Shown here in pieces: positions 19,192 to 36,375 of a stretch of DNA of 64,000 nucleotides (position 1 is its first letter; each line of letters starts with the position of its first letter). Position numbers and translations under genes: made by a program. The stretch covers positions 62,001-126,000 of the forward strand of contig NZ_PCPB01000002.1 in the NCBI RefSeq assembly GCF_002979535.1, read 5' to 3'. The notes beneath the pieces were generated by a model, which worked only from the letters and a program-made list of their open reading frames with translations, was not told the DNA's origin and did not search any database. Origin of the DNA: Brevundimonas sp. MYb52. Lineage in GTDB: Bacteria; Pseudomonadota; Alphaproteobacteria; Caulobacterales; Caulobacteraceae.

Positions 19192-19219
19192 CCCTTCTCC
19201 CCTTGCGGGAGAAGGTGGC
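19192..19219. repeat. attL candidate: 28-bp direct repeat, left end of island
   Basis: An exact 28-bp match to 36376-36403. The sequence itself is a hairpin (CCTTCTCCC, loop CTTGC, GGGAGAAGG, then TGGC). Identity stops abruptly at both ends. Here the arm stands alone, without the second half of the palindromic element that follows the right copy. Confidence 0.75.
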
Positions 19220-19538
19220 TTTCCAACCTACCAAAATACAGCGGCTTTTTCGACACTGAAAGGGTTGTGCAGTTGCTGTGCAGAGCGCCCTTAGCGGAAG
19301 TGCAGAGAGCACTTCGCCATGAAATCCTCCAGGAGAGTCCAGCGCTGTGAAGCGTCAATGGGTAGGGGCTGAGCGTGCCACCCCAGAGTTAAGGGGGAAG
19401 TGCGATTTCGACCCATGCGTTAATTTGAGCCGTCTTTCAAAAAGACAATCAACGGCTCCTCGTTAGCCGCCCTTCGCAATGCATCAACGATTAGGTGAGA
19501 TCCTGGGCTTTTGACGGGCCGGGCGGTCTTGGGAATGC
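19220..19538. other. Island left-end leader, no gene, two hairpins
   Basis: A 319-bp gene-free stretch. It contains a simple hairpin (AAGTGC, loop AGAGA, GCACTT at 19298-19314) and a nested hairpin at 19427-19458 (outer GAGCC/GGCTC, inner TCTTT/AAAGA). It presumably holds the promoter of the reverse transcriptase gene. A small RNA is possible but cannot be shown. Confidence 0.5.
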
Positions 19539-19547
19539 GTGTCTAAT

Positions 19548-22500
19548 ATGAATTCGTGGAGCGAACTTACTCTTTCGCAATTGCTATTAGCCTATCGCAA
19601 GGCAAAGTCGGACTGCTTTTACGAAAGATCTCTTTATGCTGCCGAGAGATTCACCGAGTACGAGTCCAATTTATGTGAAAATCTTGAATCTCTTCTTGTT
19701 GAACTTCGATCAGGATTCGTCGCTTCCGTATTCGAAAGAAGTCTAGGTGAGCCTAGGATTTTTGCTAAGTCTCTTTCCAAGCATCAACGATCACAATCGG
19801 ATCAGAACCATAGCTTTTTCTCTGATACGGAACGAGCTTTCGAGCGCCTCATCCAGCAAAATCATTTAGTTCCAGAATTTCGGCTTGTCGGCGACTTTTT
19901 AGTCGAAATGCACATTCTCTCGGCGTTGTGGCTAAACCAAGTGGGTCACAGATACGATCAGCGCTTGGCTAACAGCGCGTATGGATCGCGTGTCCGCCGC
20001 TACGGAGCGAGAGGTCGAAATACCGACCTCCCTGAGGGCGAGTATCAATACGATGCGATTGGCTCTTTCGAGCCATACTTCTCTCCGTATAAATCATGGA
20101 GGGACTCTGGCGTATCGTCGATAAGAAACGCACTATCCGATGGGCAGGCCGTTGTAGCGATTACTCTTGATTTTTCCTCATACTACCACAACATAGATCC
20201 ATCATTCATGGTGCATCCGGACTTTTTGAGTAGAATTGGGCTCAATCTATCTGAATGGGACTTGTCGTTCACGCGGGATCTAGTTTCCGCTCTACACCAA
20301 TGGGGAGGCCTAGCTAGGGATATCATGCAGCAAGGCGGGCTGCCGGTTACGCAGCATGGCGGGCTCCCCATTGGTCTCTCCGCCGTCAGAATTATTACCA
20401 ACGTCCTGCTTTGCGAGTTTGATCGGCAAATTCAAAACGGAATGGCGCCCCTATATTACGGAAGATATGTGGATGATATATTCCTCGTTATACCGGATCC
20501 AGGGAACGTTCTAACAACGCAGCAGCTGTGGGCGTATGTTCAAAGTCGAGTTTCATACCTTACAATTGGAAGCGCCGACGAATACGGTGAATCAGGCGTG
20601 GAAGTTCGCCTGGGAGATTATCAAGGCCTGACGCGACTACGGTTTCAACCGTCAAAGCAAAAAGTATTCTTCTTAAGCGGCCAGTCTGGATTAGACCTTC
20701 TAAACAACATTGCACACCAAATTCGATCACTCTCAAGTGAGAGGCGTTTGATGCCGCTTCTTGACGAGCTGGACACTACAGCGTCGGCACGAGCGCTTTC
20801 TGCTGCCGACAGCGCCAACGAAGAGCCAGATTCTCTTCGGAGGGCCGACGGCCTGACGCTTCGTCGCTTAGGGTGGGCGCTTCAGCTCCGCTCGGTTGAA
20901 ATACTAGCTCGCGACCTAGAAAGAAGCAGTTGGCGTCGCGAGCGTCGCTCGTTCTACGAATTTGCGCGGGCCCACATACTGCGTCCAGATAAAATACTCG
21001 AGCAGTTAGATTATCTTGCTCGTTTGATATCTTTGGCAGTCTCTCTAGGAGATTGGTCAGAAGCTCGTCAGCTTCTTAGCTCCGCGCTATCTGCGATTGA
21101 TCAGATCGAACGAGCAAATGCCGGCGGCGGCTGCAAGATTAACGGCGTCGAGCTGCCAAGCACGCCGCCAGGCGCATGGCGTTCACTTCGAGAATGGGTC
21201 CTGCATTCGTGCCGGGAAGCCGTGCTTCGATCACTGCCCTGGAATCCACGCCAAGGATCGCCTCACCCTCTCTCGCGCGACGCTCGCCGCATGCTGACTG
21301 ATGTTTTGATCTATGGAGACGAAAATTTCGTCTTCCAGCTGGCGCTGGCGGTAAGGGAGGCGGATTGGGCGAAGGTGCCCTATAAGGAACATCTCCGCCT
21401 CGAAGCTGGGCGGCAGAAACCTCGGGCCCTGAACGAGGAGCGGCTGTACGCGGCATTCCCTCACTTGGACGCACTGCAGAGATTCTTGGTCGATGCTGGC
21501 GACCAAACCGCGCCTCGGCCCACAGAGCAGAGAATCAGCCAGCGATGCAGGCATGATGGAGGCGCGGCCTCCCTGCTTCCCTTTATCGTGCCGACAAGGC
21601 CTTACAGCGCGCAGGAGGTTGCGCTGTATCATCCTGAAGATTGCGTCTTTGGGGAACCGGCAGATGCTGCGCGAAACTGGGGGGAGTACGTACGTGCCGT
21701 GCGAGGCGTCTGGCCCCGCTTCACTTCTGACTCGGGGCACTTACCTCTCAATGCAAATGTCAGGGCTGACGGCGAGGTGGACCCGCGCGTAGCCGTGATC
21801 GGGGGAGTGCGTGACGAGCATTTGAGGCTGGGCATTACGAGCCTTGAAACTTCTGATGAATCTTGGTCTCGCGGAGCTTCCGGATCGGTCGATCTTTCCT
21901 CGGGTCGCTACAATCGACTTGTCAGAATAGTAAATCTTGCGATTCAGTCGGTTCCTCGTCCTACGCACTTACTGCTACCTGAGCTTAGCCTTCCGGATCG
22001 CTGGCTATATACTGTGAGTTCTGTACTTCAGCAGGCTGGAATAAGCCTTATTGCGGGTCTGGATTATACCCATTTTGACGATGGAACGGTTAGCAGTTCT
22101 GCAGTTTTAGTGCTTTCGGATGATCGACTTGGTTATCCATCATCCGTACAGATACGACAGCAGAAACTTCAGCCTGCGCCTGGAGAAGAGGAGAGCTTGT
22201 ATAGCTCTCATGGTAAAACGTGGCGATCATGGACGGAAACGCAGCACCCAATCTACATGCACAACGGCTACTATTTTGGATTGCTAATATGTTCAGAACT
22301 TCAAAACGTTGAACACAGAAGTCGTTTTCAAGGCCACGTCGATTGGATTGGAGTTCTTTCGTGGAACAGAGATATTGAAACGTTCTCGTCCTTAGTTGAG
22401 TCTGCAAGCCTAGACGTTCACGCGTACATCGCTTTAGTCAATAATAGGCGATATGGGGACAGCCGTGTGCGTTCCCCTAGAAAGGCTTCGTTTGCAAGAG

Positions 22501-22676
22501 ATGTGTGCCGAATCAGGGGTGGGATGAACGAACATCTGGTGGTGGTCCAGATCGATCCGACTGACCTTAGAGCCCAGCAGAGTAGAGCCCATAGGTGGGC
22601 CCGACCTAGCGATAGATATAAGCCAGCACCTGAAGGGTTTAGGATTTCTCCGAGCCGCAGGACAACGCCGAGCTAG
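19548..22676 (+). CDS. Defence-associated reverse transcriptase DRT1 (RT-nitrilase fusion)
   Basis: A protein of about 1,042 residues with two recognisable parts. The N-terminal half is a reverse transcriptase: AITLDFSSYYHNID (motif A, around residue 205), GGLPIGLSAVRI, and YVDD in GRYVDDIFLVI (around 307). The C-terminal 270 residues resemble a C-N hydrolase (nitrilase): LLPELSLPD (Glu near 811), QQKLQP (Lys near 873) and LLICSEL (Cys near 914), a spacing that fits the Glu-Lys-Cys triad. This RT-nitrilase fusion is the hallmark of the UG1 / DRT type 1 antiphage class, which acts as a single gene. The gene is much more AT-rich than the host, with ATA and AGA codons. I prefer ATG at 19548; an in-frame GTG at 19539 is possible. 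No maturase or retron msr/msd features are seen. Confidence 0.88.
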   Translation: MNSWSELTLSQLLLAYRKAKSDCFYERSLYAAERFTEYESNLCENLESLLVELRSGFVASVFERSLGEPRIFAKSLSKHQRSQSDQNHSFFSDTERAFERLIQQNHLVPEFRLVGDFLVEMHILSALWLNQVGHRYDQRLANSAYGSRVRRYGARGRNTDLPEGEYQYDAIGSFEPYFSPYKSWRDSGVSSIRNALSDGQAVVAITLDFSSYYHNIDPSFMVHPDFLSRIGLNLSEWDLSFTRDLVSALHQWGGLARDIMQQGGLPVTQHGGLPIGLSAVRIITNVLLCEFDRQIQNGMAPLYYGRYVDDIFLVIPDPGNVLTTQQLWAYVQSRVSYLTIGSADEYGESGVEVRLGDYQGLTRLRFQPSKQKVFFLSGQSGLDLLNNIAHQIRSLSSERRLMPLLDELDTTASARALSAADSANEEPDSLRRADGLTLRRLGWALQLRSVEILARDLERSSWRRERRSFYEFARAHILRPDKILEQLDYLARLISLAVSLGDWSEARQLLSSALSAIDQIERANAGGGCKINGVELPSTPPGAWRSLREWVLHSCREAVLRSLPWNPRQGSPHPLSRDARRMLTDVLIYGDENFVFQLALAVREADWAKVPYKEHLRLEAGRQKPRALNEERLYAAFPHLDALQRFLVDAGDQTAPRPTEQRISQRCRHDGGAASLLPFIVPTRPYSAQEVALYHPEDCVFGEPADAARNWGEYVRAVRGVWPRFTSDSGHLPLNANVRADGEVDPRVAVIGGVRDEHLRLGITSLETSDESWSRGASGSVDLSSGRYNRLVRIVNLAIQSVPRPTHLLLPELSLPDRWLYTVSSVLQQAGISLIAGLDYTHFDDGTVSSSAVLVLSDDRLGYPSSVQIRQQKLQPAPGEEESLYSSHGKTWRSWTETQHPIYMHNGYYFGLLICSELQNVEHRSRFQGHVDWIGVLSWNRDIETFSSLVESASLDVHAYIALVNNRRYGDSRVRSPRKASFARDVCRIRGGMNEHLVVVQIDPTDLRAQQSRAHRWARPSDRYKPAPEGFRISPSRRTTPS

Positions 22677-22787
22677 CTGGCAGATCCAATCTGCGAACTC
22701 CGTCTGCGAGACCGAACCAGCCTAGAGCATTTGTTCGCTCACCCCACTGCTACAGGTCGAGAACGAGAGTAGTGGGAGCCTGTCTTT

Positions 22788-22827
22788 GGGTAGGCAGCAG
22801 TGAAGTAAAGTTCATTGCTGTCTACCC
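22788..22827. terminator. Long hairpin between convergent DRT1 and traA
   Basis: A 17-bp stem (22788-22804 with 22811-22827) that pairs completely if two G-U wobbles are allowed, with the six-base loop GTAAAG. On the plus strand it is followed by TTTGATT. Its position between two converging genes suggests a terminator, although the T-run is short; a structured RNA end is an alternative. Confidence 0.6.
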
Positions 22828-22832
22828 TTTGA

Positions 22833-25034
22833 TTAGCGTCCGCGCTCCCTGGGCGACCAATCAAACCACCGATCCGGCGACCATCTTGACAATGACCTAG
22901 TAAGCTCGGCCGTTGTTGCATAGTCGCTGCGCCCGTACCGCAGCATTGTTGCGTCCCGATGCCGGGTCATCGCCACATAGGCTGCATGCCGATTGATATG
23001 GCGACTAGCCAAGACATAGGTCCTATCTACAGTCGCGCCCTGCACCTTGTGGATCGTGGCGGCGTAACCGTGCGTCAGGTCCGCATATTCCTTGCGGTCG
23101 AACCGCAGGTTTCGCCCGTCATCCAGCCGCGCCTCTATGGCTGATCGACCAAGTGCAACCAGCGTAGCGAGCGTCCCATTCTTCACTCCGAGCGACCGCT
23201 CGTTCCGCAGAAACATCACCCGGTCCCCGACCGCGAAGGGCCGCTCGCCGTACGTGGTCTCCACCGCCTGGTCCGGCCCCAGTTTCTTGGCCGCCCGCAG
23301 CGTCTCCCGCGCCAGCCGGTTCAGCTCCGCCACGTCCGCCCGCGTGTAGGCCAGCAGCATCTGCGACGCGGTTGGATCGCGCACCCTGTCGGCCATCCAG
23401 TCCGCTACCAGCGCCCATCGCGCCTCGTCGCGCGTGTCGTGCCCGTGGACGGCGCCTGCGGCGTCGTATCGCTGGATGGCGGCCTCTGTTCGCCCTCTTG
23501 CCAGTTCGATAGTCGCCGCCCGCTGCCAGCCCTCCCGCTGGCGTCGCACTTCGGTGATTTCCATGGCACCGTGCCGCTCAACCAGTCGTCGGAACGGCGC
23601 CCCCGCCTCAATGGCCTGAAGCTGCTCCGGATCGCCAACCATCACGACCTTGGCGCCGCCGCGTTCTGCCGCTTCGAGGATACGCCGCATCTGCCGCGTC
23701 CCGACCATGCCCGCCTCGTCGTTCACCAGCACGTCGTCACGCGTCAGGTGGTCCCGGTCCCGCGCCCAAGCGTACTCAAGGCTGGCCAGCGTCCGCGAGG
23801 GAATGCCGGAACCTTTCTCCAGATTCTCGGCCGCGATGCCGCTGAGCGCCGCGCCAACGACCCGGTAGCCCTCCGCCTCCCAGGCCGCACGCGCCACCCC
23901 CAACGCTGTGCTCTTCCCGGTTCCGGCATAACCGACGACCGCCGCCAGACATCCGGCCGACAGCACGTGCGCCACGGCCAGCACCTGCTCGTCGCCGAGC
24001 TGCCCCACCGTCGCCATCTCGGCTCTGGCCGCGCGGCCAGAGCGTTCGGTGATGGCGCGATGAGGCTGGCTCTCCAGCCGGTCAGACGCCCGGAGCATGG
24101 CCTCCTGTGCGCGGATCAGATCGCGGCTGGTGAACCGTTCGCGACCGCGTTCGTCCATCCCCAGATGAACCAGCTCCGGGGACACCAGGACTTTGGCGTG
24201 GAGCCGGTCGAACTGGTCCTTGCCGTCGGTGTGGCGAAAGACGAAGCGAGCCAGATCATGGCGGGTGAAGGTCTCCTGCGTGTGGGTCAGGGCTTCGAGG
24301 GCGGCGGCCGGATTGCGCAGCAGACGTTCGCCGTTGCGCCGGGCGATGTCGCGGTGCTGGTCGGCCCGTTCCGAGGTCTGGCCGCGCGCTTCAGATCGGG
24401 CGGCGGCCGGGCCGATCTTGAACTGGGGCTCAAGGTCGATGCCCTGATCCTTGAGGCTGCGGTGATCGATGCGGATGTCATGGTCGAGTTCGGCCAGGCG
24501 AACGTTCACATGCTTGGCCCAGGCTTCGCGCCAGTGCTCCAGAAGAGCGGTGCTGTTCCAGTCCCGCGCCTTGGCGCCGAAGCCGTCGGCGCCGACTTCC
24601 CGCAGCGCCAGCATGACATGCGCATGGGGCCTAGGCAGGCCGTCGTCGCCGATGTCGCAGTGGACGTTCAGGTCGGCGACCATGCCGCGCCGCACCAACT
24701 CTCGCTCGACGAAGGCGCGGGCCAGTTCGATGGCGTCAGCGGGCTGCATCTCTCTGGGCAGGGCGAACTCGATCTCGCGGGAAAGCTGGGCGTCTTTGCG
24801 CTTCTCGCCCCACTCGACCTCATTCCACAGCGCCTGCCGGTCGGACCAGCGCTCCGGCGCGCCGTCAGGCAGCAAGATCTCCGAATGCAGCACGCCGGAC
24901 TTACGGCTGTAGTCGAACGGCTGCTCGGTGCGCTCGTCGAACAGGCGCGAGGCCGAGCGATAGGCCGCCGCCGCCACTGCGCTACGGCCGGTCGAGCGTG
25001 AGATGACCTTGGCGGAGAAGTGGTAGATGGCCAC
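22833..25034 (-). CDS. traA: Ti-type (MOBQ) relaxase-helicase TraA, C-terminally short
   Basis: A 733-residue conjugative relaxase fused to a RecD-like helicase. The N-terminal MobA/MobL domain begins AIYHFSAKVISRSTGRSAV and contains the metal-binding HAH in RPHAHVMLALREV; the helicase part has Walker A GYAGTGKSTALG near residue 368, the DEAG motif in LVNDEAGMVG and GDPEQLQAIEAG, and late motifs ATIHKVQGATVDRTYV and AAYVAMTRHR. It nicks oriT and unwinds the transferred strand. Ti-type TraA proteins usually run to about 950-1,100 residues; this one stops shortly after the last helicase motif. I chose the GTG at 25034 (GGAG about 10 bases upstream) because homologues begin with this sequence. 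The oriT-like site lies 26 bp upstream of this start. Confidence 0.9.
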   Translation of the reverse strand: MAIYHFSAKVISRSTGRSAVAAAAYRSASRLFDERTEQPFDYSRKSGVLHSEILLPDGAPERWSDRQALWNEVEWGEKRKDAQLSREIEFALPREMQPADAIELARAFVERELVRRGMVADLNVHCDIGDDGLPRPHAHVMLALREVGADGFGAKARDWNSTALLEHWREAWAKHVNVRLAELDHDIRIDHRSLKDQGIDLEPQFKIGPAAARSEARGQTSERADQHRDIARRNGERLLRNPAAALEALTHTQETFTRHDLARFVFRHTDGKDQFDRLHAKVLVSPELVHLGMDERGRERFTSRDLIRAQEAMLRASDRLESQPHRAITERSGRAARAEMATVGQLGDEQVLAVAHVLSAGCLAAVVGYAGTGKSTALGVARAAWEAEGYRVVGAALSGIAAENLEKGSGIPSRTLASLEYAWARDRDHLTRDDVLVNDEAGMVGTRQMRRILEAAERGGAKVVMVGDPEQLQAIEAGAPFRRLVERHGAMEITEVRRQREGWQRAATIELARGRTEAAIQRYDAAGAVHGHDTRDEARWALVADWMADRVRDPTASQMLLAYTRADVAELNRLARETLRAAKKLGPDQAVETTYGERPFAVGDRVMFLRNERSLGVKNGTLATLVALGRSAIEARLDDGRNLRFDRKEYADLTHGYAATIHKVQGATVDRTYVLASRHINRHAAYVAMTRHRDATMLRYGRSDYATTAELTRSLSRWSPDRWFDWSPRERGR

Positions 25035-25059
25035 AACCGCAGCGCTCCGAGCAAAGCGC

Positions 25060-25092
25060 ACGTCGGAACGACGTATAAGCGCGCACTCCGGA
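25060..25092. other. oriT-like site (MOBQ nic region)
   Basis: A perfect 6-bp inverted repeat ACGTCG-GAA-CGACGT (25060-25074) is followed directly by ATAAGCGCGCACTCCGG. Recalled oriT nick regions of Ti plasmids and RSF1010 have the same layout: an inverted repeat, then TATAATTGCGCCCT or TAAGTGCGCCCT. Its place in the divergent gap between the relaxase gene and the MucR/traC/traD genes is where Ti-type oriT sites lie. Assignment is by resemblance. Confidence 0.7.
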
Positions 25093-25237
25093 CAGCATGT
25101 CCGTCGTGACGGGGACTGGCGTCCCGCAAGTCTACGGAGGTGGAAAGCCGCGATCCTTCATCGCGTCCGGTTTCCAGGCATGAGGGGACGTGCAAGGCTG
25201 AGACGGACTATTCCCCCCACCGCCAGGACCTGAATGC

Positions 25238-25678
25238 ATGGATGAGCTGACCGCCGAGACCGACCTGATCGGCATGACCGCCGACATCGTTTCGGCCTTC
25301 GTGTCGAACAACGCGATCGCCGCCGACGCCCTGCCCCGCCTGATCGCGGGCGTGCATGGCGCGCTGGCGGGAACGACGCAGGTTGCGGCGCCCGAGCCCG
25401 AGCCGCAGGCGCCTGCGGTGTCGATCCGCAAGAGCATCACGCCGGACCACATCATCTGCCTGGAAGACGGCAAGCCGTTCAAGTCGATGAAGCGCCACCT
25501 GGCCAACAAGTACGGCCTCACCCCGGAGGACTATCGCGCCAAGTGGGGCCTGCCGAAGGACTATCCGATGGTGGCGCCGAACTATGCGGCTGCGCGGTCG
25601 GAACTGGCCAAGTCGATGGGCCTCGGCCAGGGCGGTCGCAAGCCCGCCAAACGCGGACGCAAACCGGCGGCCAAGTAA
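25238..25678 (+). CDS. MucR/Ros-family transcriptional regulator
   Basis: A 146-residue DNA-binding protein. The conserved MucR core is plain: SITPDHIICLEDGKPFKSMK followed by RHLANKYGLTPEDYRAKWGL, holding the Cys and His residues of the atypical zinc finger. The N-terminal 50 residues (LTAETDLIGMTADIVSAFVS) match the oligomerisation region and the tail is Lys/Arg-rich. MucR homologues silence or regulate AT-rich and horizontally acquired genes. Its place beside oriT suggests control of relaxase or transfer genes; that is inference. Confidence 0.9.
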   Translation: MDELTAETDLIGMTADIVSAFVSNNAIAADALPRLIAGVHGALAGTTQVAAPEPEPQAPAVSIRKSITPDHIICLEDGKPFKSMKRHLANKYGLTPEDYRAKWGLPKDYPMVAPNYAAARSELAKSMGLGQGGRKPAKRGRKPAAK

Positions 25679-25777
25679 GCCGCTCACGCCCGCGCACGAC
25701 CGCAGACTTACGGGGGCGCGCGGAAGGCAGGACCAAAGCATGATGGCGGCTCTTCGAAGGAAGAGAGAGCCGTCATC

Positions 25778-26086
25778 ATGCGAAAGCCCAGGGACATCGA
25801 CGCCGAACTCGCGGCGCTTGCCGAACGCGCCTCCGCCCTGAAGGCGCGCCGGGTCACACAACTTGGCGAACTCGTCATCGCCAGCGGCGCCGACGCCCTG
25901 GGCGCCGACATTCTCATGGGCGCGCTGAACGCCGTAGCGGCCGAGACGAACGAGCAGACCCGAAGCCAGTGGCGCCAGCGGGGCGAGGCCTTCTTTCGCG
26001 GCGAACGGACGCGCACCGCTGCGGCGAGCGCTTCGCGCCACGACCCTAAGGCTGGCCCGGCTTCCAGCCCTGATGCGCCGGACTGA
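25778..26086 (+). CDS. TraC-like conjugal transfer accessory protein
   Basis: A 102-residue small basic protein beginning MRKPRDIDAELAALAERAS with KARRVTQLGELVIASGADAL, a block typical of the TraC/TraD-type proteins encoded divergently from traA in Ti-like transfer regions. It probably helps assemble the relaxosome at oriT. A purine-rich stretch (GGAAGAGAG) precedes the ATG. The C-terminus overlaps the start region of the next gene. Confidence 0.75.
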   Translation: MRKPRDIDAELAALAERASALKARRVTQLGELVIASGADALGADILMGALNAVAAETNEQTRSQWRQRGEAFFRGERTRTAAASASRHDPKAGPASSPDAPD

Positions 26087-26090
26087 AGCC

Positions 26091-26363
26091 ATGCAGCGGC
26101 GGGCCGATCACCAGGAACGTCAGGACGCGCGGCGCGCTCGCACCCGCCACCTGATCGAACTGGGCGGCTTGGTGCAGAAGGCGGGTCTCATCGAACTGAC
26201 CGGCGACGACCGTAGCGCCATCTTCGGCGGCCTGCTTGTCGTCGCCGCCATGCTGAGTTCGGATCGGCGCGACGAGGCCATGGCGGTTCTGGCGCACCGG
26301 GGACGGCGCGCCTTCAGGGGTGACAAGGAGTCCCTCAGCGGCGATGCTCCCGCCCCATGGTGA
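26091..26363 (+). CDS. TraD-like conjugal transfer protein
   Basis: A 90-residue protein (from the ATG at 26091; an in-frame ATG at 26073 is also possible). The sequence RTRHLIELGGLVQKAGLIEL followed by TGDDRSAIFGGLL is the conserved block of small Ti-type TraD proteins, which act with TraA/TraC at oriT and are unrelated to the TraD coupling ATPase. The start overlaps or abuts the end of the traC-like gene, and its end overlaps the longer reading frame of the next gene. Confidence 0.8.
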   Translation: MQRRADHQERQDARRARTRHLIELGGLVQKAGLIELTGDDRSAIFGGLLVVAAMLSSDRRDEAMAVLAHRGRRAFRGDKESLSGDAPAPW

Positions 26364-26440
26364 TCCGTCGCGAATACCACAGAGCCGGCCGCGAGGAGCT
26401 TCGCCTTGCGAAGCGCGGCGGTAACGGCAAGACTCGCCGG

Positions 26441-27358
26441 ATGAAGACGAGTCTCGACCATCTGCCGCTCGGCAAGCGCCGCGAGCTTGAGCACGTGCTC
26501 GGGGTCATCAAGGACGAGTTCGGCAAAGCTATCGCCAACCGGCGCGCCGAGGGCGTGAAGGACGGCCAGATCCTCAAGGTCATCCTCTACGGATCATACG
26601 CCCGGGGCGACTGGGTCGAGGATCCGGTCGGGCGCTATTTCTCAGACTTCGACCTGCTCGTCGTCGTCAGCGACGAGAAGCTGACGGACGTGCTGGAGTT
26701 CTGGGAGGGTGCCGAGAAGCGCCTGCGGCGGGACCTCGCCTCCGGCGCCAATCTTCGCACCCCTGCCGACCTGATCATTCATTCGCTCGACGACGTAAAC
26801 GACCAACTGGCGCAGGGCCGGTACTTCTTCGCGGACATCGTGCGTGACGGCGTGGTGCTGTTCGAGGAACCGGATCATCCGTTCGTCGATCCACAGCCGT
26901 TGCCAAGCGAGGCGGCGCTGAACGAAGCGGAAAAATACTACAGAGACCGTATGGAAACGGCGGGCGAGTTCTTCGATGATGCCCAGTCAAACTATGAGCG
27001 TGGACGTTTCAAGAAGGGAGCGTTTGAAGCTCACCAAGCGGCCGAGCATCTGTACAATGCGATCCTGCTCGTCGCGACGCTGTACACGCCAAAGTCCCAC
27101 AACCTAGTCCGGTTGCGGAATGCAGCCGAACCCATCGACGCGCGATTGTCAGAGGTCTGGCCGACGGAGACGAAGTTCCAGAAGCGGTGCTTTGAGCTTC
27201 TACGCGCCGCTTATGTGAAGGCCCGATATTCAGAGCACTACCGGGTAACAGCCGAGGAACTTACCTGGATGCTGGAGCGACTCAGCGTGCTCCAGAACGT
27301 CGTGGAGACGATCTGCCGTGAACGTTTGAATGAGTTGATCGCCGCCAGCAAGGGCTGA
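26441..27358 (+). CDS. MNT-HEPN fusion: nucleotidyltransferase plus HEPN domain
   Basis: A 305-residue protein. Residues about 40-110 form a minimal nucleotidyltransferase with ILYGSYARGDW and SDFDLLVVV (the GS motif and D-x-D metal site). Residues about 165-295 form an all-alpha HEPN domain (DDAQSNYERGRFKKGAFEAH, then KARYSEHYRVT). Elsewhere MNT and HEPN occur as two-gene toxin-antitoxin pairs in which the transferase AMPylates and neutralises the HEPN RNase; here they are one chain. ATG 26441 begins the conserved part; the longer frame overlaps the upstream gene. Neighbouring position after traD is shared with transfer modules of other alphaproteobacteria as far as I recall. Confidence 0.85.
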   Translation: MKTSLDHLPLGKRRELEHVLGVIKDEFGKAIANRRAEGVKDGQILKVILYGSYARGDWVEDPVGRYFSDFDLLVVVSDEKLTDVLEFWEGAEKRLRRDLASGANLRTPADLIIHSLDDVNDQLAQGRYFFADIVRDGVVLFEEPDHPFVDPQPLPSEAALNEAEKYYRDRMETAGEFFDDAQSNYERGRFKKGAFEAHQAAEHLYNAILLVATLYTPKSHNLVRLRNAAEPIDARLSEVWPTETKFQKRCFELLRAAYVKARYSEHYRVTAEELTWMLERLSVLQNVVETICRERLNELIAASKG

Positions 27359-27413
27359 AATGCGTCAACAACGGAAGCTAATCGCCCCCCCCCTAAGAAG
27401 CGGACCCTCGAAG

Positions 27414-27911
27414 TCATGGCCGCTCTGCGATCTCGCGTTCGAGCGCCATTAAGTTGTATCGCCACCAGTAAACCGCTTCACGAAACAGCTGAAAGGCGTC
27501 GACCCCGTCTTCGAACTCGACGAAGGCATACCCGCCGTCGTTCCGCGCTAGTCTTGCGCCAAAGGAGTAAGTCTTGAGGAGGCTGTTCCTCTCCCTCTCG
27601 ATGAAATTCCAAAAGATCGCCGACCGTGCGCGGTCGGCATGAAAGTCTGTCCAGAGCGCGCCAACGGCGTCCGTATGTTTCGGGGACGTTTTGGCATCGA
27701 CCTTCGCCAGCACGTGGCCAACGGTCCTCAGCAGGGCTAGCCCCGCAACCCAGTAGATTCTCCACTCTGGCAGCTCTTCGTCCCCATCCGCCACATCGGA
27801 ATTCTGGAACTGGAATAGAATGGAGACGCAATCCCAAAAAGGAGCCCAGGCCTTTAAGGTCTGCTGCGGGGGCGACAGTACAAAGATGTCTCCCGTCACA
27901 TAACTCGTCAT
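27414..27911 (-). CDS. Hypothetical protein, last gene of three-gene operon
   Basis: A 165-residue protein of no recognised family. It is rich in tryptophan and aromatic residues (AWAPFWDC, VYWWRYNL) and looks mainly helical (YWVAGLALLRTVGHVLAKVD). The R/H-containing stretch FWNFIERERNSLLKTY recalls the R-x4-6 type active-site helix of HEPN proteins but without the His, so this is not claimed. It lies 18 bp downstream of a 64-residue gene and would be cotranscribed with it. Confidence 0.65.
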   Translation of the reverse strand: MTSYVTGDIFVLSPPQQTLKAWAPFWDCVSILFQFQNSDVADGDEELPEWRIYWVAGLALLRTVGHVLAKVDAKTSPKHTDAVGALWTDFHADRARSAIFWNFIERERNSLLKTYSFGARLARNDGGYAFVEFEDGVDAFQLFREAVYWWRYNLMALEREIAERP

Positions 27912-27929
27912 CCGCGCCTCACATCGATT

Positions 27930-28124
27930 TCAATCCTCGACGTCTCCGTCCCCGTCATCCGCTCTCTGCCCATCTAATAGGTCGAAGATTCCCATATTCA
28001 TGGCCAAGAAGCTGCTATCAGACAGGCGGTCAAGCTCGAGCAAGCCGGCCCGCTCAAAGATCGCCCATATGTTCCGCTGCCCACGCGACAACCAAGTCTG
28101 GATGGCGAAGAGCCGACGTGCCAT
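27930..28124 (-). CDS. Small hypothetical protein, middle gene of operon
   Basis: A 64-residue protein with a basic, aromatic N-terminal half (MARRLFAIQTWLSRGQRNIW) and a strongly acidic tail (ADDGDGDVED). No family is recognised. It is 33 bp downstream of the R-x4-H protein gene and 18 bp upstream of the 165-residue gene on the same strand, which supports it being real. Confidence 0.5.
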   Translation of the reverse strand: MARRLFAIQTWLSRGQRNIWAIFERAGLLELDRLSDSSFLAMNMGIFDLLDGQRADDGDGDVED

Positions 28125-28157
28125 CAGACGGCAGCCTTCGGCATCCAGTTCTCTTGG

Positions 28158-28529
28158 TCAAGCGCCTTCATGAAATAAACGATGGACGAAGTAGTCGCGC
28201 TTGTCTTTGATCCACTTGAGATACCGAATATCGGCCTCGGCGATCGCGTGTCCCTCTAGAATTTTGATCAAAGATCCAAGCGTAGAACCCTGAAGTTGGG
28301 TCTTCTTTGCGGGCGATTGGGTCCAACGATCGATGTCGTCGCCGAGTATTTGCTTGAGCTTGACTCTGTCGCACATGTGCATAGCCGAGATAAGCACGTC
28401 CTCGAAAAGGCCCACCGCTATATAGGAGCCGGCCATCTCCTGGCAGTAGACGCGGCGTGCGAAATCCAGGTCGGACATCTCGTCGACGATATTGCGAAGC
28501 TGATCGTTCGTGAGATTCGGGCCGAACAT
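28158..28529 (-). CDS. Hypothetical protein with R-x4-H (HEPN-like) motif
   Basis: About 123 residues from the ATG at 28529; longer in-frame starts at 28595 or 28688 exist but the first would overlap the start of the divergent DUF3644 gene. The sequence is helical (NDQLRNIVDEMSDLDFARRV, FEDVLISAMHMCDRVKL) and ends with KDKRDYFVHRLFH, an R-x4-H arrangement as in the active site of HEPN ribonucleases. It heads the three-gene minus-strand operon and is transcribed divergently from the DUF3644 gene. A toxin role is a guess. Confidence 0.55.
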   Translation of the reverse strand: MFGPNLTNDQLRNIVDEMSDLDFARRVYCQEMAGSYIAVGLFEDVLISAMHMCDRVKLKQILGDDIDRWTQSPAKKTQLQGSTLGSLIKILEGHAIAEADIRYLKWIKDKRDYFVHRLFHEGA

Positions 28530-28593
28530 ATCTTGGGGCCGCCATTTTTGATGGGTAGATAAGCTTGGCTTTATGCTCCTATGATGGGCATTC

Positions 28594-29769
28594 ATGGCCA
28601 GAAATCCCAACAACAAGCTGGAGCGGTGGGAAGTCGCGATCATCAAGGCGATGATGGCGGAGACGCCACGCAAGACTGACCAAGACATCCTCGCCTATTT
28701 CACGCGGCCGACGCGATCCATCAATCACGGCCGGATTAAGGATATCCGCGACACCAAGACCCATACGGCGGTCCCGGCGGCGTCGGCCCAGGAACTGGCC
28801 GAATTCCTAGATGCATGGCCGGACGTAGACGGCAGCGGCCTCCACCTTATTGGCGACGAGCTTCTCATCAAAGCGCGTGAGGCGATGCTTCACGCGGTTC
28901 AGGGCTTCAACAACCCTAGGGCCTACTTCAAGTCCGAGGTTTTCATCGTCACGGCCGTGATCGCGTGGACCTATCTGATGCACGCCCATTTCAAGCGGCA
29001 GGGGGTCGACTACAGGCACCGCGACCGCCGTACCAGCGAGGTTCTCAAGACCCGTCACGGCGCTGACAAGCATTGGGAACTAGAGCGTTGCATAGGCGAT
29101 GCCGCTTGTCCCCTAGACGAGGCGAGCAAGGCGAACCTGAAGTTCCTGATCGAAATCCGGCACGAGATCGAACATCAGATGACCCGCCGCATTGACGATC
29201 TCATCAGCGCCAAGCTGCAGGCGTGCTGTCTGAACTTTAACGTCGCGCTGAAGACGATGTTCGGCGCCGAGCATGGGCTCGACCGCGAACTGGGTGTGGC
29301 CCTGCAGTTCTCCGGCATCGCCAAGTCTCAGCGCGACCTCTTGTTGAAGGACACAGACCTGCCCGCCCATCTGGTAGCGGCGCATCTTGCCTATGAGGAC
29401 GCCCTGCCTGACGCGGTGATCCGCGATCCGAAATATGCCTATCGCGTGGCCTACGTGGAGCGCTCTGTGAACGCCAAGGGTAAGGCCGACCAAGTGGTGG
29501 AGTTCATCCGCCCGGAGTCCGCCGAAGGCCAGGAGATCGCCAGCGTCCTGGTTAAGGAATCCGAGCGCAAGAAGTACAAACCCAAGGACATTGTCGAGCT
29601 GATGCAGGCCGAAGGCTACAAAGACTTCAAGCTCTACGACCATCAGCTGCTGTGGCAGGGGGCGGACGCCAAGAACCCCGTCCACAAGTTTGGTGTAGAG
29701 CTAAGGCCCGGCGACTGGTGGTGGTACGACAAATGGGTCGATCATGTGCGAGCCGCCTTAGCACGATGA
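28594..29769 (+). CDS. DUF3644-family protein with R-x4-H motif
   Basis: A 391-residue protein. The N-terminal 60 residues look like a helix-turn-helix region (VAIIKAMMAETPRKTDQDIL, SINHGRIKDIRD). The central part matches DUF3644 as I recall it (AREAMLHAVQGFNNPRAYFK, TAVIAWTYLMHAHFK), with EIRHEIEHQM giving an R-x4-H motif as in HEPN ribonucleases. The C-terminal 110 residues (KYKPKDIVELMQAEGYKDFK) resemble a winged-helix segment. Members are found in defence islands; biochemical function is not established to my knowledge. It is divergent from the small R-x4-H gene. Confidence 0.7.
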   Translation: MARNPNNKLERWEVAIIKAMMAETPRKTDQDILAYFTRPTRSINHGRIKDIRDTKTHTAVPAASAQELAEFLDAWPDVDGSGLHLIGDELLIKAREAMLHAVQGFNNPRAYFKSEVFIVTAVIAWTYLMHAHFKRQGVDYRHRDRRTSEVLKTRHGADKHWELERCIGDAACPLDEASKANLKFLIEIRHEIEHQMTRRIDDLISAKLQACCLNFNVALKTMFGAEHGLDRELGVALQFSGIAKSQRDLLLKDTDLPAHLVAAHLAYEDALPDAVIRDPKYAYRVAYVERSVNAKGKADQVVEFIRPESAEGQEIASVLVKESERKKYKPKDIVELMQAEGYKDFKLYDHQLLWQGADAKNPVHKFGVELRPGDWWWYDKWVDHVRAALAR

Positions 29770-29876
29770 GCACGAGCTAGTTCCAAATCGATGCATTGCC
29801 CCTCCAAGCCTCGCGCCTGCAAGCCCGCTCAAAACATGGGCCAATGGCTCATGATGACTCTTAGCCGAGCCGCTTA

Positions 29877-32800
29877 GTGCCCCGCACGCCCCTTGGAACG
29901 ATCTATATCGGCGCACCGATCGAGCTTGCTTCCGAGCGGGCGGTCGTCGCCGCTGTGGCGGAGCGTCTGGAGCAGAACCAGGCGCCCTATGTTGTCATCG
30001 CCAATGCCCAGATCGGCGGTCGGCAGATCGACTGCATCATCGCCACGGCAGCCTTCGTGACGGTCATCGAGGTGAAGCTGTCCCGAACGCCCGTCCGCGG
30101 CGACCTGAACGGCGCCTGGTCCAGAATGGACGCCAGCGGGGAGTGGAGGCCCTACGGCAACGCCTATCAGCAAGCTGTTGGCGCCAAGAACGCCCTAAGG
30201 GACGCCGTGTCGGCTCTGGCCCCGGCCGGCGACTACTATCCCGACGCCTGTGTGGTCTTCGCTGCGCCCACACCGGTCGGCTCCCACGTCACTGCGGGGG
30301 ACTTCAAGGCCCGGGTGGCGACGCTCACTGCGTTTCTCGCAGATTTCCCCGCCAGCGGCGCCAAGCGACCGCCTTGGGCCGTTGACCAATGGCACGCCTT
30401 CGCAACGGCCATGTCCTTGACGGCGATCAGTCTCGACGAAGCCGTAGGCGGTGACCAAACCCGGCGCGACGTCGAACGCCTCCGGCTCTATAACGCCGCC
30501 GTCGCGGAAGAATATGGCCGTGCTGGCGGGCGATGGCTCCATGAAGACGGTGCTCCTGACGCCTTGGAGCTCGCGGCTTCAGAGGGCGGTGGATGCGTGA
30601 TCGTCGGGCCGTCAGGCTGCGGCAAGACCCTCATGGCGAAGAGTCTGGCGAGCCGGTTGGCGACTGCCGGGTCGCCGGTCCTGTACTTCGCAGCCAAGGA
30701 CTTCGCCGGTGAATGGGCCAGGGCCGTCCGCCGTGAGATCGGCCTTCTTACCGATGCGCCTCCGGCGGAGCTTTTGCGGGCCGCTGCTAATGGCGACCAG
30801 TCGGTGTTCCTAATCGTCGACGGCGTGAACGAGCTGGCCGGATCGGAGGCCCTCGCCCTTCGCGGACTGCGCGCGCTTGCCCGGCGGCTCGACGCTAAGA
30901 TCGTCCTGACCGCCCAAGGGCCGCCCGCCGGCTTTGAGGGGCTTTCCAGCTTCGAGGTTCCCAGGCCAAGCGCCCCATTGAAACGGCGAATCGCTGAGCG
31001 CGATGGGCGGCGTTTAGCGCCCAGCGTTACCGACCTCCTCAAGGCCGTCGGCAGCGGTTTTGAGGCCGAGATGGTTGGCGATGTGGGCGCAACCCTCGCC
31101 GGGGAAGCGACGCGCCTCGCCCTGATCGATCAGTACATACGGACCCGGCTTGGCACCCATGCCCGCGCCGGGGCCTTCGGCCTCCGGCAACTCGCCGTCA
31201 CCCTGCACACCGACGTTGCGTTCTCGATCGCCGAGCCCCGTTTCGATGAGCTCATGCGGCGAGAGGCGGTCAGCTTTGACACCTGCGACGGAATGTTCGC
31301 CGCCGGGCTGCTTGTCCGGCGCATCGGTCGTGTCTCCTTCTCCCATGAGATGATCCTCAACGGCTGCGCGGCTTTCGGCTTGGCGGACACTGGGGCGCAG
31401 GATCCTGAGGCCCTGGGTGAGCGACTTTCAACGCCCTTGCTGGCCCCCCTCGCCGGCGAGATCGTCACCGCGATCGAGAATCCCGATGCGTCGATGCGGG
31501 TGCTGCAGGCGGCGACCAGCTCTGACCTCATCGCCGCCGCGGCGGCCGGCAGCCTCGGAAGCATCGCGGCATCCAACGCTCGCAAGCTGATCCAGGCGGC
31601 CAAGCAAGCCTGCATCGACGAGATCGGCGCCGTCTCCCTCGAGTTCGACCAGGACAACAAGGCCTACGTCACCCGCTGGGGCGAAGCTGGCCGTCGTGAA
31701 TGGACGCCGCCTAAACAAGCACGTCTCGGCGCCATCGGCCAATTGGCGACGTCGTTGGTGGGCTTTCAGGACTACCAGGACTTGTGCGCTGTCATGGACG
31801 CCCGGCTCCTCGAGGAACGCCGGCGGCTGGACCCGGTAGTGAAAGCCGCCGGTATCGGCATCAGAAGCCCCAGTTTCGCGCTCGCCTACTACAGTATGGG
31901 CGACGAAATCGGCTTTAGCCGTATCGCCCATTATGGCTCGCGACGCAGTCTCGGTGACGTGCCCGAGGTGCTGCCGTCGCTCGACGTCGCGGCCCTCACT
32001 TCGGGGCAGCTGCATTTCTATCTGGAGAACCGGCACGCCTTCTTCGGCGCCGAAGAGAGCGGCAAGTTCGCAGACGAGCTGATCTTCGTCCTGCGTGAGC
32101 GCTTCTCCTACGAGCCCTACCACGTCCAGCTGGCGGCCCTGTCGGCCGTCGGGTTCGCCCGCGAAGCGCCGGACGAGGTGTTGGCCGAGCTAGTGGAGAC
32201 GATCAACGCCCTCGACGTTCCGCAGCACAACTGGGCGATCAACTCCAGCATCATCGACGCCCTGGGGTTCCTTGGAGCACTCGACGACGACGCCGAGAAC
32301 GCGCGCGACGGCATCCGCATCGAGGTTGCCGCGGCTCTCGCCGATGGCGCCGACGGGAACGACGCGCTTACCCTCTACGTCGCCATGTTCGATCACCCGT
32401 TCAGCGCCATCTACTACGAGGAGATCCAAGCGCTTTCGGAGGATCAGCGCCGCATGCTCTATCGGCGTGCGCTGGCGTCCGTGGAGATCAAGCGTAGCCT
32501 GAGCCTTAGCTGGATCACGGCAGAGGTCGCACGGCTCGAGGACCCCGCCGATGCGCCGCTCTTCACCCGCTTTGTGGCCTTGCCGGACCGCAGTAACCCC
32601 TTTCCACAGGAGGAGTGGGGAGCCTTTACCCTCAGCCTCCGATTCATCGGCCGGCACGGGGTGCCGCTGCCCGCAAGTGACGCCGAAACCGAAGAGGAGG
32701 GCTGTCTCAACGACATCCGGATCTTGGTCCACGCAGCGGAATCGCGGCGGCCCGAGCATCTGGCCGCTGCGCATGACGCTTGGGTCCGCCTTGACGCTCG

Positions 32801-33146
32801 GCCTCCCGGACTGGTCGTGGGCTGTCTATCAGAGATTCACGCGGCGCTGACCGAGCGGCATTGGGCGGATGACAACCGCCCCTATCCGCCGATCGACCTG
32901 CGCGACACCTATCCGACCGAGAGTCTTCGGCTCGCGCGCCGCTTCGTCGATGCGGCCGTCGACCCCCAATATTTCCACGCCGTCCCGTTGCGGGAGCGGG
33001 GGCCGGCGCTGGCCTTCAGCACGCTCGGGCGCTTCGGAGACAGGAGCGACGTCGACGTCCTTCGTCGCCTTGGTCGCGCGCATCGCTACTCGTCGTATGC
33101 GCTCGCCGCCTTGAGGACACTCGACTCAGCGCCGGCCGGGCCGTGA
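29877..33146 (+). CDS. NERD nuclease-STAND NTPase with helical repeats (Avs-like)
   Basis: A 1,089-residue multidomain protein. Residues 1-130 resemble the NERD nuclease-related domain: RQIDCII followed by VTVIEVKLSRTPVRGD, giving the D...E-x-K pattern of PD-(D/E)xK enzymes. Residues about 230-500 form a STAND-type NTPase: Walker A VGPSGCGKTLMA near 241, Walker B FLIVDGVNELAG near 310, and a winged-helix block VSFSHEMILNGCAAFG. The remaining 580 residues are alpha-helical, likely HEAT/TPR-like repeats that would sense a ligand. Effector-STAND-repeat layout is that of antiviral Avs/NLR-like proteins. Start is GTG at 29877 with a poor Shine-Dalgarno. A HEPN-like gene follows after 50 bp. Confidence 0.82.
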   Translation: MPRTPLGTIYIGAPIELASERAVVAAVAERLEQNQAPYVVIANAQIGGRQIDCIIATAAFVTVIEVKLSRTPVRGDLNGAWSRMDASGEWRPYGNAYQQAVGAKNALRDAVSALAPAGDYYPDACVVFAAPTPVGSHVTAGDFKARVATLTAFLADFPASGAKRPPWAVDQWHAFATAMSLTAISLDEAVGGDQTRRDVERLRLYNAAVAEEYGRAGGRWLHEDGAPDALELAASEGGGCVIVGPSGCGKTLMAKSLASRLATAGSPVLYFAAKDFAGEWARAVRREIGLLTDAPPAELLRAAANGDQSVFLIVDGVNELAGSEALALRGLRALARRLDAKIVLTAQGPPAGFEGLSSFEVPRPSAPLKRRIAERDGRRLAPSVTDLLKAVGSGFEAEMVGDVGATLAGEATRLALIDQYIRTRLGTHARAGAFGLRQLAVTLHTDVAFSIAEPRFDELMRREAVSFDTCDGMFAAGLLVRRIGRVSFSHEMILNGCAAFGLADTGAQDPEALGERLSTPLLAPLAGEIVTAIENPDASMRVLQAATSSDLIAAAAAGSLGSIAASNARKLIQAAKQACIDEIGAVSLEFDQDNKAYVTRWGEAGRREWTPPKQARLGAIGQLATSLVGFQDYQDLCAVMDARLLEERRRLDPVVKAAGIGIRSPSFALAYYSMGDEIGFSRIAHYGSRRSLGDVPEVLPSLDVAALTSGQLHFYLENRHAFFGAEESGKFADELIFVLRERFSYEPYHVQLAALSAVGFAREAPDEVLAELVETINALDVPQHNWAINSSIIDALGFLGALDDDAENARDGIRIEVAAALADGADGNDALTLYVAMFDHPFSAIYYEEIQALSEDQRRMLYRRALASVEIKRSLSLSWITAEVARLEDPADAPLFTRFVALPDRSNPFPQEEWGAFTLSLRFIGRHGVPLPASDAETEEEGCLNDIRILVHAAESRRPEHLAAAHDAWVRLDARPPGLVVGCLSEIHAALTERHWADDNRPYPPIDLRDTYPTESLRLARRFVDAAVDPQYFHAVPLRERGPALAFSTLGRFGDRSDVDVLRRLGRAHRYSSYALAALRTLDSAPAGP

Positions 33147-33196
33147 CCCCCGCCAAGCCCAGCACGCCGCGCCCTTGGCTACGAGGTCGATAGCGC

Positions 33197-33757
33197 ATGT
33201 CCCTTGAGCGCCGCGACCGCTTGGTCGAGCAGATCGTCGACACCCAACCGCGCCTGACGACCTTTGTACGGCCGTTGCCCAGCGATATGATCGCCGGGTC
33301 GTGGGACCTGCTTTCGTATAGCTTTCAGCGGGGCTTCGAGCTGATGTGGGATCAGGCGTGCGCCGAGTCCTCCGGCCTGCTCACCCGACCCCTGTTGTCT
33401 CTTTGGCGACAGAGCGTCGAACTGGCTCTGAAAGCCTCTATCCTCGAAATCGCCGGGAGCATCCCTCCCAAGCTAAGCCACAATCTGCGCGGCCTGTTCG
33501 AGCGCCTGCTCGCAGAGCGCGCCGCGCTCGGCCATGACGACGATGACGACCTGGCGCGCGACGTGGCGCGCATGATCGACTTCGTCCAGACCTTAGATCC
33601 GTTCGCCGACCGCTTCCGCTACCCCACGTCCAAAAACGGGACGCCCTTCGCAGGGATCCAAGTCGACCTGGACGAGCTCTTCCAGGCCCACTGGATCATC
33701 GTGACCTGGTGCGAGGGCGCCGCGATCGAGGTTCGAGAAGGCTGGGGACACGCGTAG
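33197..33757 (+). CDS. HEPN-like partner of the NERD-STAND protein
   Basis: A 186-residue, mainly helical protein. LLSLWRQSVELALKASILEI, followed by KLSHNLRGLFERLLAE and later DRFRYPTSKNG, resembles small HEPN-domain proteins. No R-x4-H motif is obvious, so it may be non-catalytic. It lies 50 bp after the STAND gene on the same strand and ends before the convergent hypothetical gene. Function as partner, inhibitor or second effector is inferred from position. Confidence 0.6.
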   Translation: MSLERRDRLVEQIVDTQPRLTTFVRPLPSDMIAGSWDLLSYSFQRGFELMWDQACAESSGLLTRPLLSLWRQSVELALKASILEIAGSIPPKLSHNLRGLFERLLAERAALGHDDDDDLARDVARMIDFVQTLDPFADRFRYPTSKNGTPFAGIQVDLDELFQAHWIIVTWCEGAAIEVREGWGHA

Positions 33758-33789
33758 CTGATCAGCCGACGCTCAGCCTTCCTCCAGCG

Positions 33790-34725
33790 CTAGAGAAACT
33801 TCTCGGCCAACTGGCGCTTGCCCCGCGGATCGACGTTCGTGATCTCGTCCTTCGCCGGGTAGTAGAAGCCCGAGACGTAGAGGTCGTGCTTGCCTATCTC
33901 GACACGGACCGAGAGTTCCTCGTTGTCTTCCCATGTGTCATGCAGCGAGGCCTTGCAGGTCTCCCCCCGCAACTCGAATGTGAAGGAGGGCGCTTCGCGA
34001 TCCCAGTTCGTCACCGCCGTGCGGATGAGCGTCTCCCCGATCGCCTTGCGCTTCTTCGGCGAAAGCATGTCTAGGGACGACTCCTTGATCGGCCCGAAAA
34101 TGCCGCTGTCGTTCATTACATCAAGGATCTTACGCATGTGCGCGCCCGTGTGCTGGTTCACGAACAACGACGAGCGGGAGCCATGCGGGCGCCCCAGGAT
34201 GTAGGACCGGATGTTCCACCAAGTCTCCGCCACCTGCGCGTTGGCCGCCTCGCTCGCCAATAGTGAGACAAAGCAGCGCAGGGCGTCCCGACTGCGGATC
34301 GTGCCGTCAGCTTCGAGTTCGACGCCCCATGCGGTGACGACGACGGGACACGCCTTGTCCGAATAGAGGGGCTTGGAGAGACGACGCGCCGAGAGGTTTG
34401 GCACCGAACTTACGGCGCTAACAAGCTGGTCCGCTGCCTCATCGGAGTATGGGCAGGTCACAAATCCGCGGACGAACTCAATCGTGTGATCAAGCCCGCT
34501 GTAGGTTTCAACGTCCTGCAGACTAGCGACATGCCGGCTCGAGTCGCGGGGCGGAGATGTCAGGATTGGATGCCAGTCAGGATAGCTGTCGGTGGCGTTG
34601 CCCAGTTCTGCGATCAGTTGCTCGACGACGGCCCGGCCAGCGGCCGGATCCTTGAGCGACTTTGTCAGATAGGTGACGGCGGCGGCGTTTTGCTGCGCCG
34701 CCACCGTGGGGGATCGAAATTCCAT
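33790..34725 (-). CDS. Hypothetical protein of the island
   Basis: A 311-residue protein of no recognised family. The N-terminal half is helical (GRAVVEQLIAELGNATDSYP) and the C-terminal 90 residues look beta-rich (APSFTFELRGETCKASLHDT, LSVRVEIGKHDLYVSGFYYP). No membrane segment or catalytic motif is seen. I chose the ATG at 34725, where GGAG lies just upstream; the longer start at 34770 would place the palindrome 34756-34777 inside the gene. It is a single gene, convergent with the HEPN-like gene and downstream of the integrase in the same direction. Confidence 0.65.
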   Translation of the reverse strand: MEFRSPTVAAQQNAAAVTYLTKSLKDPAAGRAVVEQLIAELGNATDSYPDWHPILTSPPRDSSRHVASLQDVETYSGLDHTIEFVRGFVTCPYSDEAADQLVSAVSSVPNLSARRLSKPLYSDKACPVVVTAWGVELEADGTIRSRDALRCFVSLLASEAANAQVAETWWNIRSYILGRPHGSRSSLFVNQHTGAHMRKILDVMNDSGIFGPIKESSLDMLSPKKRKAIGETLIRTAVTNWDREAPSFTFELRGETCKASLHDTWEDNEELSVRVEIGKHDLYVSGFYYPAKDEITNVDPRGKRQLAEKFL

Positions 34726-34755
34726 ATCTCCGAACTCACGTGCAATAGAAGAATC

Positions 34756-34777
34756 ACGTAAAGATATCATTTTACGT
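34756..34777 (-). promoter_or_regulatory. Palindromic site upstream of the island hypothetical gene
   Basis: Arms ACGTAAA (34756-34762) and TTTACGT (34771-34777) surround GATATCAT. The centre shares AAAGATATC with the methionine operator at 12898-12923. It sits about 30 bp upstream of the ATG at 34725 in locally AT-rich DNA, where an operator or promoter would be expected. Confidence 0.5.
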
Positions 34778-35050
34778 AATCATAGCAAGATGCGTTTGGC
34801 CCTATCGCCCAAACTCAAGGCTGGGGCAATTGTCAAACGCCTCGCTGGCGATCCGGAAGGCCTTCGACCGGACCGCCGATAATCGAACCTGCCTCGGAAG
34901 GCGGCATTGGCGACATGTGCTGATCACGTCCAAGGAGTATCTCCTCGTTAAAACGGCAACCAGCCGCCCCTGTCCGTGGGAAGGGCGCGATTGCGGTCTT
35001 CGGTCGATGAGGTCCCGCTTTCCGGCCCGCATTAACTTCCGCTAGTGGCG
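34778..35050. other. Intergenic region without recognised gene
   Basis: About 270 bp between the hypothetical gene and the integrase stop. A short plus-strand frame from 34830 lacks a ribosome-binding site and family resemblance. Nothing else is recognised. Confidence 0.4.
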
Positions 35051-36247: not shown

Positions 36248-36278
36248 CGGGCGGCTCCCTGTGCAGGGTCTGTGTCGC

Positions 36279-36325
36279 CTCAGGGCCTAAGTCCTTGACT
36301 CTCCATAAGCTGGATAGGCCCTGAG
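36279..36325. repeat. Inverted repeat between integrase start and right att site
   Basis: Perfect 9-bp arms CTCAGGGCC (36279-36287) and GGCCCTGAG (36317-36325) separated by 29 bp. Position between int and attR fits an integrase arm-type or regulatory protein site; this is inference. Confidence 0.5.
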
Positions 36326-36375
36326 CAGACCTTGAGCGTGGACAAATCTGAAGAGAAACAAACCCGTAACATCAC

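Follow-up and report, generated by a model that had tools for sequence, protein, structure and literature searches.

A predicted UG5 reverse transcriptase-nitrilase as exchangeable AT-rich cargo of a mobile element in Brevundimonas

Background

In the literature that we searched, the mechanism of fused reverse transcriptase (RT)-nitrilases has been worked out for DRT1 (UG1) only. DRT1 carries an RT, a helical repeat and a nitrilase in one chain, an architecture that is also a feature of UG5. It performs template-free, protein-primed DNA synthesis, is controlled through its oligomers and requires its nitrilase, which is in turn controlled by the DNA product (PMC13275509). It defends alone in E. 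coli, and the K1219A mutation abolishes this defence or drops it to the level of a C-terminal deletion (PMC13275509). DNA synthesis, template-free and protein-linked, has also been reported for the class 3 enzymes DRT5S and DRT5L, and class 3 enzymes made DNA in the presence of RNase (PMC13275509). Judging from naming and class, DRT5S/L are probably UG5 small and large. A published survey lists a C-terminal nitrilase for both unknown classes 1 and 5 (PMC8934634), and the fusion is therefore not sufficient to identify a protein as DRT1. We read UG5 and UG1 as related class 3 RT-nitrilases, the class assignment of UG5 being our own reading. In the literature covered, a search for UG5 together with defence-associated RT found no publication.

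A UG5 gene in Brevundimonas

The window, which is the whole stretch of 64,000 nucleotides analysed here from Brevundimonas sp. MYb52 (contig NZ_PCPB01000002.1, positions 62,001 to 126,000), contains an uninterrupted reading frame at 19548-22676 on the forward strand, running from ATG to TAG and encoding 1042 aa, with an in-frame GTG 9 bases 5' of the ATG. The PADLOC model RT_UG5-nitrilase (PDLC03780) matched residues 2-1041 of the protein to profile positions 16-900 of 907 with 919 bits, and the same model matched all 45 homologues scanned in parallel. An open reading frame (ORF) of 1042 aa matched end to end by a family profile excludes chance. Conservation was assessed over 74 full-length UG5 proteins, the window protein included, and counts out of 74 below refer to this set. 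The features of the gene are:

19548..22676, + strand: RT_UG5-nitrilase coding sequence, 1042 aa (PADLOC PDLC03780, E about 1e-276)
19548..20582, + strand: N-terminal region and RT fingers/palm, residues 1-345 (Pfam RVT_1, 8e-5, on residues 177-332)
20169-20171, + strand: catalytic D208, invariant in 74/74
20466-20477, + strand: YVDD, residues 307-310 (Y-x-D-D invariant in 74/74, V308 in 73/74)
20583..20987, + strand: RT thumb and conserved extension, residues 346-480 (AF2 model)
20736..20738, + strand: Ser397, candidate priming residue (inferred), invariant in 74/74
20988..21809, + strand: connector, residues 481-754, fast-evolving and alpha-helical (two AF2 models)
21810..22643, + strand: nitrilase (carbon-nitrogen hydrolase) domain, residues 755-1032 (VIA Z 23.6)
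21981-21983, + strand: nitrilase E812, invariant in 74/74
22164-22166, + strand: nitrilase K873, invariant in 74/74
22185-22187, + strand: nitrilase helper E880, invariant in 74/74
22290-22292, + strand: nitrilase C915, invariant in 74/74
22620..22640, + strand: C-terminal lid motif K1025-x-x-P1028-x-G1030-F1031 (motif count; 9yfd alignment)

The initial annotation had described this gene as a DRT1-type RT-nitrilase in a mobile element, probably acquired separately, and had taken YVDD RT motifs fused to a nitrilase-like domain with a plausible Glu-Lys-Cys triad as the signature of UG1/DRT type 1. The fusion, the mobile element and the separate acquisition were all borne out, the triad being E812, K873 and C915 (with E880 beside it). 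The DRT1/UG1 identity was not, as UG1 and UG5 both have the fusion (PMC8934634) and the protein is UG5 by profile (919 vs 79 bits) and by RT tree. The Drt1a profile reached 78.8 bits, with its best stretch at residues 147-397, whereas true DRT1 controls (1288-1296 aa) scored 1342-1380 bits on it. In an RT-domain tree compared against DRT1, Drt3a, UG36 and other RTs, the window protein and 15 other UG5 proteins formed one branch with support of 86/90, which lies below the starred threshold, and DRT1 formed a branch of its own (98/97) with the window protein outside it. The window RT fell far below the cut-offs of the NCBIfam retron, Drt2 and Drt3a models (retron_St85, 30.4 bits vs a cut-off of 235), Rfam gave no group II intron match in the window at the gathering threshold, and Pfam found no maturase or endonuclease domain. 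The RT stands apart from the remaining RTs of the sample, and the nitrilase fold is clearly present; neither a retron or intron grouping nor a missing nitrilase fold, named in advance as refuting outcomes, was seen.

The UG5 and DRT1 profiles match each other in the RT (E 2e-16) and the nitrilase (2e-16), with no sequence similarity detected in the middle region by the same comparison, and the closest solved structure by sequence is the DRT1 filament 9yfd, again matched in RT and nitrilase. DRT1 proteins differ in being longer (1229-1296 aa) and in a middle helical repeat that is not alignable to the window protein. The DRT1 label is therefore wrong, yet among characterised systems DRT1 is the closest relative. 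The window protein is a further UG5 member, its family name is corrected from DRT1, and two testable residue predictions are added to it below.

Conservation, structure and composition

A single-sequence scan of genome contigs gave no confirmed relative, and an alignment-based scan gave 420. The 80 with the highest scores were retained, and they are thus a best-scoring set, not a random sample. Within these 80 of 420, the nearest relative found is 51% identical to the window protein. Full-length relatives were also found in E. coli, with the accession WP_000222103.1, and on an S. meliloti plasmid, and four long matches derive from viral contigs. Of 5426 complete E. coli genomes, 252 carry the E. 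coli gene in near-identical form; a DNA search of E. coli using the window gene gave no match, nor did tblastn against phage records. Twelve residues are invariant in 74/74 proteins, namely D208, Y307, D309, D310, S397, E812, K873, E880, C915, N965, K1025 and P1028. The window protein resembles its RT_UG5-nitrilase relatives in full-length profile match, domain order, catalytic residues and a colinear middle, and differs from them in its distance to the nearest one found and in an internal GC mosaic of its own.

Two other loci were noted. In G316 (L034, 8091-11129) a UG5-nitrilase gene is split into two ORFs by in-frame stops and is possibly a pseudogene. In G078 (L037, 8761-9642) a lone 293-aa DRT1-type nitrilase domain without RT (424 bits to Drt1a positions 897-1176) sits inside an apparent surface-polysaccharide gene cluster.

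Pfam found RVT_1 as the sole domain of the window protein. An AF2 model from 46 sequences (pLDDT 87.5, pTM 0.91) aligned over residues 755-1032 to amidases and nitrilases, with VIA Z up to 23.6 (4gyl amidase, 2.7 A over 240 residues). The middle of about 350 residues, in which no domain had been recognised, divides into a well-conserved extension of the thumb and, after it, a helical connector that evolves fast. Conservation at residues 398-500 is among the highest in the protein (0.55-0.65 identity within its clade), with a low-confidence AF2 segment at residues 417-433 inside the thumb extension; the fastest-evolving stretch, about residues 500-757, has the lowest identity of the protein. 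Folded alone, the middle gave generic helical-repeat matches only, at Z of at most 10.1 and inside the noise range for helical models. These matches would fit the alpha-helical repeat domain described for DRT1. The DRT1 structure 9yfd is not among the fold matches listed, perhaps because the structure library used runs only to April 2026. The earlier statement about the middle therefore holds as far as named domains go, but the region is predicted to be helical and is colinear in all relatives.

The gene is more AT-rich than its surroundings, as had been noted, with a GC of 0.523 (GC3 0.508), whereas the remainder of the element has 0.633 and the window as a whole 0.656. The higher GC of the middle was also confirmed, GC3 being 0.594 there, 0.474 in the preceding part and 0.446 in the following part. 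The difference between middle and ends (20739-21818 as the middle) is +0.135 in the window gene and averages -0.011 in 45 homologues (sd 0.028, maximum 0.071), placing the window copy about 5 sd outside them. The raised GC3 is a property of this copy that its homologues do not have. A foreign insert was considered for the GC-rich middle and rejected at the protein level, since all homologues are colinear there and the window copy shows, along the gene, the same identity pattern as control pair comparisons.

C-terminal lid and candidate priming serine

All 74 UG5 proteins have the motif K-x-x-P-x-[GNDA]-[FY] within their last 45 residues, and the remaining 72,509 residues of these proteins contain it once. 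Of the DRT1 proteins, those whose C terminus is complete have it too (4/4). The alignment of the UG5 profile to 9yfd reaches the C-terminal tail and pairs the motif with K1219-F1225 of 9yfd, so that K1025 of the window protein corresponds to K1219 of DRT1. A lid common to UG5 and DRT1, as these alignments suggest, is the best supported new mechanistic point.

From YVDD to residue 480, Ser397 is the sole invariant Ser/Thr among the 74 UG5 proteins, and it stands at the end of an AF2 thumb helix (378-396). The priming S402 of DRT1 follows the first thumb helix as T401-S402-S403, a position confirmed by count on the 9yfd sequence. The best hhalign path places a serine in the same register, pairing I392-RSLS-S397 with I416-QSAL-S421 (the S402 equivalent) of a DRT1 protein; at E 0.49 this register alone has no statistical weight and is a lead, not proof. 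Ser397 is on these grounds a candidate primer. The authors of the DRT1 study describe S402 as not conserved in other class 3 enzymes (PMC13275509). Together, the lid kept in 74/74 proteins and the one invariant serine carry the DRT1 mechanism over into residue-level predictions for a second family, and since UG5 is common in E. coli, these predictions are testable in laboratory strains.

An integrative mobilizable element carries the gene

The location in a mobile element, claimed earlier, was confirmed by the following features:

19192..36403, no strand: integrative mobilizable element, 17.2 kb (28-bp repeats; empty site in four congeners)
19192..19219, + strand: left end repeat, att-like, REP-type palindrome (CCCTTCTCCCCTTGCGGGAGAAGGTGGC, identical to 36376-36403)
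36376..36403, + strand: right end repeat, 28-bp perfect direct repeat of the left end
35051..36247, - strand: tyrosine integrase (PF00589, 2.4e-12; PHROG integrase, 1e-33)
22833..25061, - strand: TraA/MobQ-type relaxase-helicase (PF03389, 6e-69; TraA NCBIfam models above cut-off)

The hallmarks of an integrative mobilizable element are all present, namely an integrase, a relaxase, direct repeats on both sides and an empty site, and in four congeners the flanks adjoin directly without the element. A sister element in congener G403 shares the integrase (96%) and the relaxase region (about 88% at the DNA level) and has no UG5 gene. A 612-aa ORF of 50% GC occupies its RT slot (L254, 17274-19112), and the sequence of this ORF is suggestive of an ATP-binding, OLD/RecF-like ATPase. 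The presence there of another AT-rich gene marks the left slot as a cargo site and supports separate acquisition of the RT gene. Sequence comparison thus presents the window gene as an intact, single-gene UG5 RT-nitrilase that forms exchangeable AT-rich cargo of the element.

A REP-type palindrome, CCTTCTCCC-N5-GGGAGAAGG or a sequence close to it, borders the integrase end in three congeners whose flanks differ (window, 19192-19219 and 36376-36403; G403:C265, about 4465 and 19318; G409:C125, about 50889). The palindrome has 51 sites in the window's genome, often as inverted pairs about 100-140 bp apart. Given this position at the integrase end and the many genomic sites, REP repeats appear to serve the integrase as targets.

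Relatives in BREX and restriction-modification operons

Searching the neighbourhoods of the best-scoring set with PADLOC labels, we found BREX genes near 15/74 UG5 members and type I restriction-modification (RM) near 12/74, with neither system in the DNA searched around 47/74. The E. coli UG5 copy adjoins AbiE genes, not RM, and the window copy, instead of lying in an RM or BREX operon, stands alone in a mobilizable element. In 11 BREX loci (L065, L068, L070, L075, L081, L102, L107, L108, L112, L113 and L117), the UG5 gene lies between two pglX halves, often with start/stop overlap. On a reference of 1176 aa, the N half spans about residues 1-600 and the C half about 600-1176; the halves correspond to methyltransferase and motif recognition (PMC11341690). 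This repeated position suggests a functional link to BREX. One further locus, L243, has a split pglX without RT and with three other genes between the halves, by which the pglX gap looks like a cargo site for defence genes, and one that looks to have arisen more than once. A single ancient event was also considered for the split and is unsupported, as the label 'split' changes at least four times on the pglX tree. A PglX search of the window's genome gave no match.

A proposed mechanism and its alternatives

We hold with moderate confidence that the gene encodes an intact class 3 UG/Abi (DRT) UG5-nitrilase, most likely a lone abortive-infection antiphage system with a DRT1-like mechanism. The RT domain would attach nucleotides to its own protein in a template-free reaction, with Ser397 as the candidate primer, and the DNA adducts would drive nitrilase-mediated oligomerisation. 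The C-terminal lid (K1025-F1031) would then cover the active site of the neighbouring subunit and hold the nitrilase closed until phage infection releases this state, whereupon the freed E812-K873-C915 nitrilase would hydrolyse an essential metabolite and the infected cell would stop. Family, intact catalytic residues, conserved lid motif and mobile cargo context are directly established. We infer a DRT1-like working, including priming at Ser397 and infection as the trigger, from the UG5/DRT1 profile matches in RT and nitrilase, the shared lid and the register of Ser397. Filament contacts need not be the same as in DRT1, given the lack of detectable similarity in the middle, and some relatives may need partners, since many lie in multi-gene defence operons.

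These operons lend themselves to another account, in which the protein serves BREX or type I RM, both methylation-based defences, only as an auxiliary effector that is triggered once this first line has been blocked. The window copy would then be a mobile orphan relying on such systems elsewhere in the host. BREX and type I RM near 15/74 and 12/74 members, and the gene between pglX halves at 11 BREX loci, speak for it, but with 47/74 members having neither system in the searched DNA, an E. coli copy beside AbiE, a window genome without a PglX match and DRT1 defending alone in E. coli (PMC13275509), we consider it unlikely. A further reading, which we regard as doubtful, would have UG5 proteins as fail-safe suicide effectors repeatedly recruited to methylation-defence operons at the pglX junction and released when a phage inhibitor neutralises the first line; mobilizable elements would spread the stand-alone form, and one lid-and-primer mechanism, via Ser397 and K1025, would be common to UG5 and DRT1.

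In another alternative, the RT would copy a dedicated noncoding RNA, as in the class 2 enzymes DRT2, DRT9 and DRT10. In its favour, 29 of the 63 loci with a same-strand upstream gene have a gap above 100 nt, and in the window, 19360-19538 lies outside any long ORF. At 24 of the same 63 loci, however, the upstream gene reaches up to or into the RT start (gap of at most 20 nt), which leaves no room for an upstream noncoding RNA there, Rfam gave no match in the window (an undescribed RNA would escape it), and class 3 enzymes synthesise DNA despite RNase (PMC13275509), all of which makes this reading improbable for UG5. It is quite improbable, too, that the gene is present but non-functional, as decaying or silent cargo: its odd internal GC mosaic and the stops inside the G316 relative would fit decay, but the window copy has an open frame with all 74/74-invariant residues intact. 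The identity first proposed, a DRT1/UG1 protein, would account for the same RT and nitrilase architecture and for the weak Drt1a match; set against the UG5 score, the far higher Drt1a scores of true DRT1 proteins, the separate RT branches and the dissimilar middle, it is almost certainly incorrect. The lone UG5-nitrilase system with a DRT1-like mechanism is thus the reading that we prefer.

Other genes of the element

Three further ORFs of the element, all on the forward strand, were noted:

26357-27358, + strand: nucleotidyltransferase (MNT-like) and HEPN domains in one 333-aa ORF
28594-29769, + strand: DUF3644 protein matching PADLOC candidate PDC-S19 (E 2e-120), candidate defence cargo
29877-33146, + strand: 1089-aa NERD-AAA protein, candidate defence cargo

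MNT-like and HEPN proteins are usually encoded by the two separate genes of a toxin-antitoxin pair. The MNT-HEPN region also occurs in the elements of G403 and G409.
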